A stretch of 54,509 nt of DNA, from positions 1 to 54,509 of the forward strand of contig QXYC01000026.1 of NCBI GenBank assembly GCA_009887095.1, in the 5' to 3' direction. Both the position numbers and the translations under genes were made by a program. Of this stretch, positions 10,181 to 14,365 are shown in pieces. Origin of the DNA: Candidatus Poseidoniales archaeon (GTDB taxonomy: Archaea > Thermoplasmatota > Poseidoniia > Poseidoniales > Poseidoniaceae). Positions within the stretch are counted from its first letter, which is position 1. The number at the start of each line of letters is the position of its first letter. Under the pieces are notes generated by a model. That model saw nothing but the letters and a program-made list of their open reading frames with translations. It had not been told where the DNA came from and did not search any database.

Positions 10181-11953
10181 TCACTCAGAAAAATGGACGG
10201 CGTACGTATCCTTCCAATCGGCAGAGGATGCATTAAACCAAGATTCAGCTTCCTCAAAGGCTTCTTTTCCTTTCGATCGGCGCTTAGCACGCTGACTAAT
10301 CAACTTCCATGCCGTTTTTTCGCCAATTCCCGGAATGGATTCAAGTTGTTTCTGAGTGACCGTAAGATGGTTGAAGTTTGTCTCAACGCCCGTAATCGAT
10401 CGTGCTCCGTGGCCAGTGACAATGATGTCAGAAGAAGTTTCCAATGGAATGTGGTATTCGACGCCAACAAGGATTGGATATGCCCCGATTTGACGTCCGA
10501 AGGTAATGCCCGCTTTCCCTCGACATTGCTCCGCAGTGTGCGCATCTTCCATGTGTGCTGGGAGCCTTGTTCGTCCGTCATGCGTCTCCCAATGCACATT
10601 GGATAATTTACTACCCAAGGGGAATAATTCTTGCAAAAGAGGACCATCGATGGTGTCTCGGACATTGGTTTTGAACGTGTTAAATGCCTTTTGTGGGATC
10701 TCTTGGAAGCCTTCACCTTCGACTTGCCGGATGTTGATCCTGCGCAAAAGCAACCCCTCTCTCCTGATTTCATGGAGTAAATCGAGGTTTAATTGATAAC
10801 TCGCTTCAGTTTCTCCATTGAGTCCTGCAATGAAATTGAGTCCAGGTAACAGCTTTGGCAACCCTCGCTTGCCTCGGGTTTTCCCATATTTGTTGATGAG
10901 GCGAATGGCCGTCTTCAACTGAGCAGGGTCGCAATTCAGCCAATTTGCTTCGTGGACGGATGGGTCTGCGGATTCGAGGCCAAACGAAAGCACAGCGCCA
11001 TCAGAAAGCGTTTCAACGAGGGTTTTGGTGATTTCCTCAGACGGTTCAAGGTTTTCTGCAATGATGGATGGATTGCCGTTGTCAGTGTGAAGGATGCCAA
11101 GACGTTCATCGTCACGCAGCCCATAGAGGAGTCGAGCAATCGGTTCCGGGTTTGGAATTGGGTATTCCAGTTCCCGAACACCATCTGCCATGTAGGTGTA
11201 GGTGTCCGTCATGCCCCCTAAGCGAACATGTTGTACGCCCGCATCATGAGCCAATCGGACTTCTTCGATGATGTCTTCAGGTGTTCGCCAGATGGGTACG
11301 CCTTTCTTTGGCTCGATGCAGAACTTACACCCACGCTTGTAGCGTACACAGCCTTGGTAGACTTCGACTTCATAGGTCAGAGGGCCTGGTTTTGCCTCAT
11401 TTCCGAGGTCCGGATGGCTTGTCACGGCTTTGCTTCCAGCACCTGCTTGGGCCCATTCGGTCCACTGCTCAGCCGATCTTCGCTGATGGGACCATGCGCC
11501 AGTCTTGAGGTAAGCGTGCAATGTGGCATCGGTGTCTTGTAAGGCGAGAAACAGGTTGGCTTGAAGCGGTGCCCAACCTTGTTGACGCCAGCCACGGATG
11601 GCCCAACCACCGAACAAGGCCGGTGTCGAAGAGGGAAGGCTTCGTATGATTTCTCGAGTTTCTTTGAGGGAGATGGGGGTTCCTCGAAGGTAACGCCCTG
11701 GAACAACAGCACCAGCGACGCATGCCAAACCTGCAATGCTGCTCAGACGCGTTCGAACAGCGTCTTCTCCTGCTTGCTTGAGGTACATGCGCCATGCGTC
11801 AATCGTTGTGTATTCATACGGGATCTTGGCTTGTTCAAGCACGCCACAAAGGTAGCGAATATGGAACCCAACATACGGTGGGACCCCGAATGCTGCAGGC
11901 TCATCCTCATAGCCATCGATGACAAGCCAAGCAGGCTCTTGTTGTTCGACCAT
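10181..11953 (-). CDS. Archaeal radical SAM protein with C-terminal helix-hairpin-helix (COG1031 type)
   Basis: A 590-residue protein from the ATG at 11953 (MVEQQEPAWLVIDGYEDEP). The radical SAM cluster cysteines sit in CVRYKRGCKFC at residues 202-212, a spacing seen in this archaeal family in place of the usual CX3CX2C, followed by EPKKGVPIWR and a GG-containing SAM segment. The C-terminal LESIPGIGEKTAWKLISQRA is a helix-hairpin-helix, which points to DNA or RNA as substrate. The reaction is not known for the family. A TTG at 11983 overlaps the upstream stop codon and would add 10 residues, but family members begin close to the IDGY segment. It lies directly downstream of the Csl4-RRM gene. 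Confidence 0.85.
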   Translation of the reverse strand: MVEQQEPAWLVIDGYEDEPAAFGVPPYVGFHIRYLCGVLEQAKIPYEYTTIDAWRMYLKQAGEDAVRTRLSSIAGLACVAGAVVPGRYLRGTPISLKETREIIRSLPSSTPALFGGWAIRGWRQQGWAPLQANLFLALQDTDATLHAYLKTGAWSHQRRSAEQWTEWAQAGAGSKAVTSHPDLGNEAKPGPLTYEVEVYQGCVRYKRGCKFCIEPKKGVPIWRTPEDIIEEVRLAHDAGVQHVRLGGMTDTYTYMADGVRELEYPIPNPEPIARLLYGLRDDERLGILHTDNGNPSIIAENLEPSEEITKTLVETLSDGAVLSFGLESADPSVHEANWLNCDPAQLKTAIRLINKYGKTRGKRGLPKLLPGLNFIAGLNGETEASYQLNLDLLHEIRREGLLLRRINIRQVEGEGFQEIPQKAFNTFKTNVRDTIDGPLLQELFPLGSKLSNVHWETHDGRTRLPAHMEDAHTAEQCRGKAGITFGRQIGAYPILVGVEYHIPLETSSDIIVTGHGARSITGVETNFNHLTVTQKQLESIPGIGEKTAWKLISQRAKRRSKGKEAFEEAESWFNASSADWKDTYAVHFSE

Positions 11954-11979
11954 ATTGACCAACTCATCAGAGGTGGACT

Positions 11980-13389
11980 TCAATCCTTCTTGGGGCCTCG
12001 GCGTCGGCGGCGCTTCTTGCCATCCTCTTCCTCTTCCCGCATCGCTTGGATTTCACGGTTGGATTTTCCGGCGGATTGGTTGGGTTTTCCACCTTTGCCA
12101 CCCTTCTTGCCGCCCTGCGAAACATCGACCTTGATTTTGCGGCCTAACAGTTCTGTGCCGTTGAGTTTTGCGACGATTGCCTCACCTTGATCCGTTTCCT
12201 TGACGAAAGCGAAAGCGAATCCCTTGGGCTTACCTGCGTTGTCGGTTGCCATCACCAATTCATTAACGGTTGCAACACCCTCAAAGATGGCTTTGAGTTG
12301 CTCTTCAGTTGCCTTGAATGGCAGGTTACCAACGTAAAGTTTGAGTCCTTCTGGATCCTTGCGCTTTCCTCGCTTGCTCTTCTTGTCGTCGCTGTCAGCA
12401 TCACGAACGCCGATCTTCCGACCGTTGATTTTGTGGCCATCCAACTTGGCAATTGCTGCGTCAGCTTGGGCCTTCTCGCTGTAGGTGACGAATCCAAATC
12501 CACGGTTCACACCGTTATCGTCTGTGAGGACGATGCAATCGGTCATGTCGCCATGCTCGGCAAAGAGTGCTCTGAGTTCTTCAGTTCCAACTTCTCGTGG
12601 CAATCCACCGACAAACAATCGGCAGCCAGGGGCGTTTCGAGGTCGGCGACCTTTTCCACCGCTTTCGCCTTCGAATCGGAAGTAGGTGCGCTCCCGTCCA
12701 TCCTCTCGGACGTCGGCTGCGATGAATGTGGCTCGGCCTGCAGGCCCTTTACCGAACATTGCTTCTGCTGCTGCACCCCAGCGCTTTCCTGCATTGTTGA
12801 GGGCGCTTGCGCCTTGTTCAAGTTCTGCCCATCCAGCACCGTAGTTGTCCGCAAGGGCACGGTAGGATTGGAATCCACATGAAGGGCATTGAACGTTCCA
12901 GTCACCATCGAGGTGTGGGAGCAAGGTGTCGCCACAAGGTGGGCAGATGGCATGGAGCACGCCACAGTCGTCTCGATCTCTGAACGAGATGCGGAGAACA
13001 GGAGAGGTTTCCTTGACTTCGGCACGGCAGACGTCGCGGCGTCGCACTGCGTCTGCGGTCTGGTGCATGTAGCGGTCGACGATGTTGGTCACGTGGAATT
13101 GTCCGTAGAGGTGTTCTGGAAGGACACTTCCAGGCTTCCCTTCAACGCAAATGACTTGTGCTTCACCATTTTTCTCATTGAGTTTGACAACTTCACAAAG
13201 AACGGTGTCACCGATTTCGGGTGTCACAATTGGCTTTGATGCTACGACCGTTCCGATTCCGTCATTGATTGAAAATGCGCCAACGGCGGTTGCAACAATG
13301 CGGCCGTCGACTTCGATTGTTCCTTCTCCAGCTTCGCAATCTGCGGTGCTGGATACATTCATTCCTGGGGTGACGAGGCTCGGCGTCAT
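11980..13389 (-). CDS. csl4: Exosome subunit Csl4 fused to two RRM domains
   Basis: 469 residues from the ATG at 13389, with AAGGA 9 nt before it; ATGs at 13398 and 13413 are alternatives. Residues 1-45 are the Csl4 N-terminal domain (LVTPGMNV, then GEGTIEVDGRIVATAVG), ~60-135 an S1-type RNA-binding domain, and C149, C152, C168, C171 the Csl4 zinc ribbon. In the archaeal exosome Csl4 forms the cap that guides RNA to the phosphorolytic ring. Unlike the usual ~180-200-residue protein, this one continues into two RRMs: RNP2 RLFVGGL 257-263 with RNP1 RGFGFVTY 296-303, and KLYVGNL 350-356 with KGFAFAFV 389-396. A Lys/Gly/Arg-rich tail follows. All four RNP motifs keep their aromatic residues, so both RRMs should bind RNA. 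Confidence 0.88.
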   Translation of the reverse strand: MTPSLVTPGMNVSSTADCEAGEGTIEVDGRIVATAVGAFSINDGIGTVVASKPIVTPEIGDTVLCEVVKLNEKNGEAQVICVEGKPGSVLPEHLYGQFHVTNIVDRYMHQTADAVRRRDVCRAEVKETSPVLRISFRDRDDCGVLHAICPPCGDTLLPHLDGDWNVQCPSCGFQSYRALADNYGAGWAELEQGASALNNAGKRWGAAAEAMFGKGPAGRATFIAADVREDGRERTYFRFEGESGGKGRRPRNAPGCRLFVGGLPREVGTEELRALFAEHGDMTDCIVLTDDNGVNRGFGFVTYSEKAQADAAIAKLDGHKINGRKIGVRDADSDDKKSKRGKRKDPEGLKLYVGNLPFKATEEQLKAIFEGVATVNELVMATDNAGKPKGFAFAFVKETDQGEAIVAKLNGTELLGRKIKVDVSQGGKKGGKGGKPNQSAGKSNREIQAMREEEEDGKKRRRRRGPKKD

Positions 13390-13490
13390 GTGATTCATTC
13401 CTTGTGCAAACATGGCCCGAGGTGGGTCGCATGTTGTTTCGCTTGTTTGAACGGGCGGGTTGTCCCCTTTTCAACCCCTCATACGAGGTT

Positions 13491-14153
13491 TCACGCCTCT
13501 TCATTTTCGTCAATGATTAATTTTGCATCGCCCGGGCGGTGAAAACGCCAACAGCGAACCGGTGTGGTCGCCTTTCCTTTGCTATGGTGGGCGTAGGTTG
13601 GTGGCAGCCTGAACTCTGTTTCCAACATGATTTCTCCATCATAGCCGTGATCTCGTGCGATGGCATGGACGTGTTTTGCTTTCGCACTGTGAAGAATATG
13701 CACCGCATCGGCGCCAAGGGAGAATGCAAACTCAAGCAATGGACGGTCAGCCCGTGCCGTCTGCACGCCCCACGGGGGGTTCATCACCACAAGATCGATT
13801 GGCTGGTCAAGTTCAATCGAATCACTGCCAATCATGGCTTGAATGACGTTCGCCCGCCCTTCGACCTTCGCCTGCGTACGCTTGATGTTGGCCTCTGCCA
13901 CATCGATGGCTTGCTCATCCGCTTCGACAAGGGTGACCTTCGAAGCGCCGAGAAGCATGGTGGCAAGACCGAGTACGCCGTTGCCAGCAGCCAAGTCAAG
14001 GATGTGCTTTCCATAAACCTCGTCCACTTGATCGACACCAAGCATCCAATATGCCGCTAGGTCGCCTTCTGTAGCGTACTGTTCGAGTTCAACTGATTGA
14101 CATGGATGGGGCTTGAGTTTGGACAATTCAATGGCCAAGTGCTTCGGCCGCAT
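13491..14153 (-). CDS. METTL5-like rRNA adenine N6-methyltransferase
   Basis: 220 residues from the ATG at 14153; a GTG at 14162 overlapping the preceding stop is possible. SAM-binding motif DLAAGNGVLG lies at 53-62 and the catalytic NPPW at 125-128, the [DN]PP[FWY] signature of N6-adenine methyltransferases. The N-terminal VELEQYATEGDLAAYWML and the C-terminal LHSAKAKHV and LPPTYAHHSKGK correspond closely to METTL5, which in eukaryotes modifies one adenosine of 18S rRNA together with TRMT112. The archaeal protein is inferred to modify small-subunit rRNA. I see no Trm112 gene in the window. It lies between the zinc-ribbon peptide and Csl4-RRM, in the same direction. Confidence 0.85.
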   Translation of the reverse strand: MRPKHLAIELSKLKPHPCQSVELEQYATEGDLAAYWMLGVDQVDEVYGKHILDLAAGNGVLGLATMLLGASKVTLVEADEQAIDVAEANIKRTQAKVEGRANVIQAMIGSDSIELDQPIDLVVMNPPWGVQTARADRPLLEFAFSLGADAVHILHSAKAKHVHAIARDHGYDGEIMLETEFRLPPTYAHHSKGKATTPVRCWRFHRPGDAKLIIDENEEA

Positions 14154-14158
14154 GCCGT

Positions 14159-14365
14159 TCACCAGCGGGGTGGTTGCTGTTGATACTGGTTGTTTGCAGC
14201 GTATTGTTGCTGAGCTGCTTGCATCTGAAGACGCATGTAATGAATTTGTTCAGCCTCTTGGCGAAGTCGCATCAGCAACTGTTCGCCAGGTTGTTGGTTG
14301 CCACAAAATCGGCAGAACCGAATACCGTCTTGGTGTTGTTGTCCACAGCTGATACAGAATCCCAT
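14159..14365 (-). CDS. Small double-CxxC zinc-ribbon protein
   Basis: 68 residues starting MGFCISCGQQ. Two CxxC pairs (FCISCG, RFCRFCG) 15 residues apart form a zinc ribbon of the kind found at the N-terminus of many archaeal proteins. A helix rich in Gln, Met and Arg follows, then a Gln/Asn-rich tail ending QQQPPRW. The ATG at 14365 is chosen because the ribbon begins at once; the longer frame to 14461 upstream looks non-coding. The stop overlaps or nearly touches the METTL5-like start, suggesting co-translation. The function is unknown; a small adaptor that binds RNA or protein is conceivable. Confidence 0.65.
   Translation of the reverse strand: MGFCISCGQQHQDGIRFCRFCGNQQPGEQLLMRLRQEAEQIHYMRLQMQAAQQQYAANNQYQQQPPRW

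Follow-up and report, generated by a model that had tools for sequence, protein, structure and literature searches.

Our analysis shows that archaea of the marine order Candidatus Poseidoniales encode Csl4, a cap subunit of the archaeal exosome, as a single protein with RRM domains, and we consider it probable (roughly 0.68) that these fused RRMs serve the cap as built-in RNA grips that recruit substrate. How the exosome chooses its RNA is an old question; in well-studied cases much of that choice falls to separate adaptors, and here a whole order of marine archaea would have fixed RNA-binding modules inside the cap. The parts of this protein are known and their combination appears to be new: we found no description of an RRM on an archaeal exosome subunit in the open-licence literature (preprints not covered), and the term 'RRM' does not occur in the accessible portion of PMC7414124. 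The gene was studied in a stretch of 54,509 nucleotides (the window; contig QXYC01000026.1 of assembly GCA_009887095.1), which belongs to a fragmented, 68%-complete assembly. The gene, its parts and its neighbours lie in the window as follows.

10181..11983 (-), radical SAM / HHH protein, downstream neighbour (Pfam Radical_SAM, 3.6e-11)
11980..13389 (-), csl4-RRM fusion gene, ATG at 13389, stop at 11980-11982, 469 aa, without internal stop
11983..12117 (-), Lys/Arg-rich C-terminal tail (dN/dS 0.161; helix at residues 444-457 in the model)
12130..12339 (-), RRM2, RNP2 LYVGNL, RNP1 KGFAFAFV (PF00076, 59.2 bits; fold in the model)
12412..12618 (-), RRM1, RNP2 LFVGGL, RNP1 RGFGFVTY (PF00076, 72.9 bits; fold in the model)
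12634..12831 (-), extension, residues 187-252, about 65 residues between ribbon and RRM1 (alignment, dN/dS, identity)
12832..13389 (-), Csl4 core, residues 1-186: N-terminal domain, S1-type domain, zinc ribbon (NF034126, 2ba1, Foldseek)
12877..12945 (-), four-cysteine zinc ribbon, C149, C152, C168 and C171 (CxxC..CxxC pattern)
13491..14162 (-), METTL5-like methyltransferase, upstream neighbour (PH1948 1wy7, E 4e-28; METTL5 6h2u, E 2e-17)

The start at 13389 is favoured because the N-terminus MT(P/A)S(L/I)VTPG is common to 12 proteins of the window's family; an in-frame ATG further upstream, at 13413, would lengthen the protein by 8 aa. By profile, fold and synteny the protein is the Csl4 of these archaea, and all three agree with the original prediction that its first ~180 residues are a complete Csl4. 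It matches the NCBIfam Csl4 model NF034126 over profile positions 2-179 of 180 (E 6e-28, 97.9 bits against a cut-off of 90), the solved archaeal Csl4 2ba1 aligns to residues 5-186 in sequence comparison (E 1e-16), and 2ba1 is also the first-ranked Foldseek hit of the predicted model (E 1.7e-17, TM-score 0.64 by target length). The Pfam ECR1_N match falls just under its cut-off (25 versus 27 bits) and Pfam gives no S1 match in the fusion protein, so that the S1 assignment rests on the full-length NF034126 match and on 2ba1. The ribbon pattern CxxC..CxxC recurs in 96 of 97 unique fusion proteins. Thus the likeness to archaeal Csl4 (NF034126; 2ba1, 3m7n, 3m85) extends to the full 180-position match, the ribbon, the fold and the METTL5-like neighbour, whereas the model (180 residues) and the solved members (179) stop at the end of the ribbon and the fusion runs on for about 280 residues more. 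The core itself has diverged, with 98 bits here against 133-159 in four whole Csl4 of the next lineage out and 161-206 in the best-scoring rows among the matches listed; one of three other fusion proteins scanned (L117) falls under the NF034126 cut-off, at 74.1 bits.

Two further regions follow the core and the extension, and the claim that they are intact RRMs with RNP1 and RNP2 motifs, ending in a basic tail, is borne out by two Pfam RRM_1 stretches (123.8 bits together, cut-off 20.7) and by the motifs read in the protein. The best solved-structure matches of the whole protein in sequence are PABP (6r5k, 1.1e-31) and hnRNP A1 (1up1, 3e-26). Like these eukaryotic tandem-RRM proteins (PABP, hnRNP A1/UP1), the fusion has two RRMs separated by a short linker, with complete RNP1 and RNP2; unlike it, they are not joined to an exosome subunit, and similarity to them does not predict RNA specificity in an RRM domain. 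The canonical RNP1 pattern is present in 71 of 71 RRM1 (L089 left out), 67 of 72 RRM2 and 24 of 25 RRMs of the sister family, and the extension residues G201, R203, W204, D226 and R228 are invariant in both families in an alignment of 55 sequences. In the AlphaFold model built from 55 sequences (mean pLDDT 76, pTM 0.42) the Csl4 and RRM folds are well formed, both RRMs having the order beta-alpha-beta-beta-alpha-beta; since the pTM is 0.42 and residues 220-251 form a poorly modelled linker (pLDDT below 50), the model does not fix where the RRMs sit with respect to the cap.

We surveyed the fusion in the window's family and its sister family (f1 and f2, both Ca. Poseidoniales; we take f2 to be Thalassarchaeaceae, or MGIIb) and in the next lineage out (f3, presumably MGIII). 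A search with the whole protein found a match in 54 of 59 relatives, the five others being four assemblies of the window's family that are 57-83% complete (G012, G014, G017, G034) and one of the sister family (G042, given as 93% complete, 260 contigs). In a draw of 292 genomes from the phylum Thermoplasmatota, an RRM was found in 42/42 genomes of the window's family, 38/39 of the sister family (the single miss being again G042), 6/6 of the next lineage out and 17/205 others; none of the four archaea among 14 control genomes had one. Within these genomes, the statement that RRMs are rare in archaea therefore holds. The original prediction would have fallen if other members of the lineage lacked the RRMs and the junction were an assembly artefact, which is not the case: 80 of the 81 genomes of the two families have an RRM, and many assemblies share the junction. 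For 77 of the 81 the top RRM match sits within a frame of 400 aa or longer, and the shorter frames of three genomes (G288, 181 aa; G258, 256 aa; G037, 301 aa) are probably contig ends. The free RRM proteins are small, with frames of 85-105 aa in the next lineage out and 81-158 aa in the 17 other Thermoplasmatota genomes, and are Rbp-like in those read. A scan for close relatives gave 65 loci, of which 64 come from records named Ca. Poseidoniaceae, Poseidoniales, Poseidonia, Euryarchaeota or euryarchaeote (older names); the remaining one (L097) is an RRM of Akkermansia.

We extracted 136 frames with a Csl4 core; 126 were complete and yielded the 97 unique fusion proteins, which include that of a closed chromosome (CM001443.1, 2,064,136 bp; treated as one record with genome G073). 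Two RRMs occur in 72 of the 97, all from the window's family or close relatives of the window. The other 25 have one RRM and all belong to the sister family; each carries a CxxC-x17-CxxC finger in the linker, which was not found in the matching stretch of the 72 two-RRM proteins, and TIGR04272 and PF23477 score over cut-off in both sister-family proteins scanned. A model of a sister-family protein (mean pLDDT 72, pTM 0.38) has the same domains and nothing further. This version, with its extra zinc finger and single RRM, and the extension at residues 187-252 were absent from the original prediction. Among the 59 relatives, no second Csl4-like match outside the fusion frame or its contig-split pieces was better than E 6e-5. 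One sister-family genome (G046) has two Csl4-RRM copies (C12 and C27), one of them at a contig start, which may be a duplicate or mixed strains. In one assembly the protein is 577 aa long (L089:5995-7731), with additional sequence separating its first and last RRM parts; this is either an assembly error or a real insertion. Finally, one assembly of the window's family has a free, unusual RRM on a long branch (L186:1795-2127, G255:C15), possibly from a contaminant contig.

Outside the order, Csl4 has its ordinary form. NF034126 matches at E <= 0.001 in 287 of the 292 genomes and over cut-off in 239, the weaker matches being not necessarily Csl4 as 11 of the 14 control genomes match as well. In the next lineage out, a Csl4 scoring over cut-off is present in four of the six genomes (frames of 185-214 aa), G206 has a Csl4 piece at a contig end and NF034126 found none in G309; this lineage thus has an ordinary Csl4 and a separate small RRM protein. 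The 12 ordinary Csl4 that we examined (eight from other Thermoplasmatota, four from f3) all end within ~22 residues of the Csl4 domain, in agreement with the claim that archaeal Csl4 normally stops after the zinc ribbon. At least 12 Csl4 frames of at least 300 aa from outside the order are present among the matches listed; eight were inspected, and seven of them are open upstream, with 129-323 aa before and 0-36 aa after the domain. The eighth (L273:582-1529; G071, family f15) has a 114-residue RG-rich tail after the domain, which may be an RNA-binding tail gained independently. In one genus of the next lineage out (g21; L149, L150, L151) one of the four ribbon cysteines is kept in the printed stretch, whereas L148, from another f3 genus, keeps the ribbon. 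A weak second NF034126 match placed in G154 adjoins RNase_PH genes, as Rrp4 does.

Every region of the fusion changes slowly in amino acids. Among 196 protein pairs of the window's family (88-98.5% identity; own Nei-Gojobori script; pairs not independent), the Csl4 core has a median dN/dS of 0.054 and the extension one of 0.043, with 0.025 and 0.034 for RRM1 and RRM2, 0.023 for the stretch between the RRMs (102 usable pairs) and 0.161 for the tail. These values are good to an order of magnitude only, as synonymous change approaches saturation (median pS 0.47-0.73). Read at that precision, and as a plain comparison of medians, the RRMs appear to change more slowly than the Csl4 core. The tail is the fastest-changing region. 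Mean identity within the family is highest, of six regions, in the extension (0.76); it is 0.72 in RRM1, 0.66 in the Csl4 core and 0.61 in RRM2.

We propose that such a protein works as follows. The Csl4 core, judging by homology and fold, would sit on the Rrp41/Rrp42 ring in the way known from other archaea; the flexible linker would bring the RRMs near the entry pore, and the RRMs could bind short single-stranded RNA (3' parts that are unstructured or rich in A, perhaps), so that more substrate is at hand locally to be degraded or tailed. With the trimeric archaeal cap, a ring with three fusion subunits would present six RRMs. A eukaryotic exosome adaptor, RBM7 of NEXT, is itself an RRM protein that recruits RNA to the exosome; it is a separate adaptor that works with Mtr4, in contrast to the Poseidoniales RRMs, which are part of the cap subunit. 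We favour the built-in grip because an engineered fusion of Csl4 with the N-terminal domain of DnaG has the same layout and speeds the decay of A-rich RNA: in vitro (Hou 2014, PMC4227792), an RNA-binding domain joined covalently to the Csl4 C-terminus gave poly(A) binding and faster degradation of A-rich RNA by the exosome, poly(A) being degraded faster with this Csl4-NT. That construct is artificial and adds the DnaG N-terminal domain, whereas the Poseidoniales fusion is natural and adds RRMs. Since Csl4 carries two RRMs, one or none depending on the lineage, nature offers a graded set in which reconstitution can measure what each domain contributes, as was done for the artificial Csl4-DnaG fusion.

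The genomic neighbourhood bears on another possible, if rather unlikely, role, in which the RRMs mainly tether the exosome to rRNA or ribosome-assembly particles and the cap is devoted to rRNA processing instead of selecting mRNA for decay. A homologue of the METTL5-like methyltransferase lies beside csl4 in 31 of 33 loci: 20/20 in Poseidoniales (two of which, L034 and L216, are the same chromosome), 5/5 in the next lineage out and 6/8 in other Thermoplasmatota, where it was not in the stretch examined at L118 and L120. As the same neighbour flanks ordinary, RRM-free csl4, it is uninformative on the RRMs themselves and lends this tether no weight. The methyltransferase has been kept beside fused and ordinary csl4 alike, and the fused gene therefore occupies the ancestral csl4 position. 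On the other side, the radical SAM / HHH gene, whose mechanically called ORF shares 4 bases with the end of csl4-RRM, is found near csl4-RRM in 18 of the 20 Poseidoniales loci compared. At one locus of the window's family (L187, G154:C124; genus g15) csl4-RRM and the methyltransferase gene lie in opposite orientations, and the Csl4 core encoded there comes nearer to the family model, at 128 bits.

Alternatively, the RRM part could be a general RNA chaperone like the small bacterial Rbp, opening structured RNA without sequence selectivity, which we regard as unlikely. The RRM pair of the window protein scores just over the cut-off of the NCBIfam Rbp model NF058537 (102.9 versus 100 bits), the free RRM proteins of the next lineage out and of 17/205 other Thermoplasmatota are Rbp-like in those read, and the linker and tail of the fusion are rich in glycine and lysine. 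However, both single-RRM proteins of the sister family that were scanned fall under that cut-off (67.7 and 68.5 bits), and Rbp-like proteins are small and free-standing, unlike the fusion, which at 469 aa is no small free protein. A tree of 76 RRM domains, of weak resolution with its 78 columns, also goes against the chaperone: RRM1, the sister-family RRM and the two hnRNP A1 domains group together, away from the Rbp-like free proteins, and 14 of 15 RRM2 stand apart.

The origin of the RRMs was further explored by AU tests on a second, 73-row tree that leaves out three long branches (L186_odd, L153_aRRM2 and A1_RRM2); the six groups were named after seeing the first tree, and the p values are uncorrected for their number. 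One clade of all fused RRMs gave p 0.29, RRM1 with RRM2 p 0.22, and RRM1 with the sister RRM but without hnRNP A1 p 0.27; shared ancestry with PABP and hnRNP A1/UP1 is not settled by the tree. Grouping with the free RRM of the next lineage out gave p 0.12 for all fused RRMs, p 0.031 for the sister RRM and p 0.034 for RRM1 with the sister RRM; on these values, that free protein is weakly disfavoured as the direct source of the fusion. The RRM tree neither supports nor contradicts a scenario of one fusion event and a later RRM duplication within the window's family. Most simply, RRMs were fused to Csl4 before the split of the two sampled Poseidoniales families.

The remaining readings concern the partners of Csl4. 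On the closed chromosome of G073, an Rrp4-Rrp41-Rrp42 cluster, DnaG and csl4-RRM are all present; Rrp41 scores 326 bits against a cut-off of 318.7, and Rrp42 (232.5 versus 280) and Rrp4 (142 versus 200) are near end-to-end matches below their cut-offs. An adjoining pair of RNase_PH genes, as in Rrp41/Rrp42, was found in 13 of 14 Poseidoniales relatives (the miss being G049) and in 3/3 f3 genomes. Neither the Rrp41/Rrp42 pair nor DnaG turned up in the window genome (68% complete), which we attribute to its incompleteness. DnaG, the known archaeal adaptor, is present in 14/14 Poseidoniales relatives and 3/3 f3 genomes, the window genome being the sole miss of 18, and loss of DnaG is thereby rejected for the genomes sampled. 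Accordingly, the original suggestion that the exosome could choose its RNA without a separate adaptor goes further than these results do. As to whether DnaG is unchanged, the protein is present and retains its RNA-binding NTD and TOPRIM parts; its C-terminal [ST]QR motif, however, is changed in all 14, being found in 22/22 other Thermoplasmatota (comparison genomes of our own choosing), 2/3 f3 and 0/14 Poseidoniales. This change could go back to one event in the phylogeny and is a lead only.

One can also ask whether substrate selection has moved from DnaG into the cap, with the RRMs of Csl4 reading the RNA and DnaG loosened from or out of the complex. If true, this would be a native, covalently self-targeting exosome; we find the idea doubtful. 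Selective decay of the DnaG C-terminal domain was considered and rejected: its scores are poor, but the ratio of C- over N-terminal identity to other Thermoplasmatota (0.50 and 0.47 in the two Poseidoniales families) drops no further than in the next lineage out (0.48; 0.58 in the others). RRM domains can also bind proteins, and the RRMs might mainly do so here, for example replacing or reshaping the contact between DnaG and Csl4. The DnaG C-terminal domain is described in Hou 2014 (PMC4227792) as important for binding the Csl4 exosome and as holding a residue cluster conserved in exosome-bearing archaea, which would fit with the altered motif, although [ST]QR is not mapped onto the S. solfataricus numbering of that paper. 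Against this stand the C-terminal divergence of DnaG, which matches that seen elsewhere in the protein, and the RNA-contacting aromatic pattern of the RNP motifs, which is nearly invariant in the fusion. Protein-only RRMs tend to lose these aromatics, and we judge a mainly protein-binding role to be very improbable.

A chimeric assembly or mis-called frame, which the fragmented state of the window genome might suggest, can be dismissed, as the same architecture recurs in the 97 unique proteins and on the closed chromosome, dN/dS is low in every region, and the ten extracted Csl4 frames in which an end or an RRM is missing are each cut off where the contig or the stretch stops.

The built-in grip remains our preferred reading. 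The window genome also encodes a bacterial-type RNase PH (G000:C12:32673-33497, L210:2174-2998; TIGR01966, E 7e-71). Although only this copy was identified by model, similar RNase PH matches, distinct from the Rrp41/Rrp42-like pair and with frame lengths of 277-365 aa, are found in none of three f3 genomes and in 14 of 15 Poseidoniales, the exception being G121.
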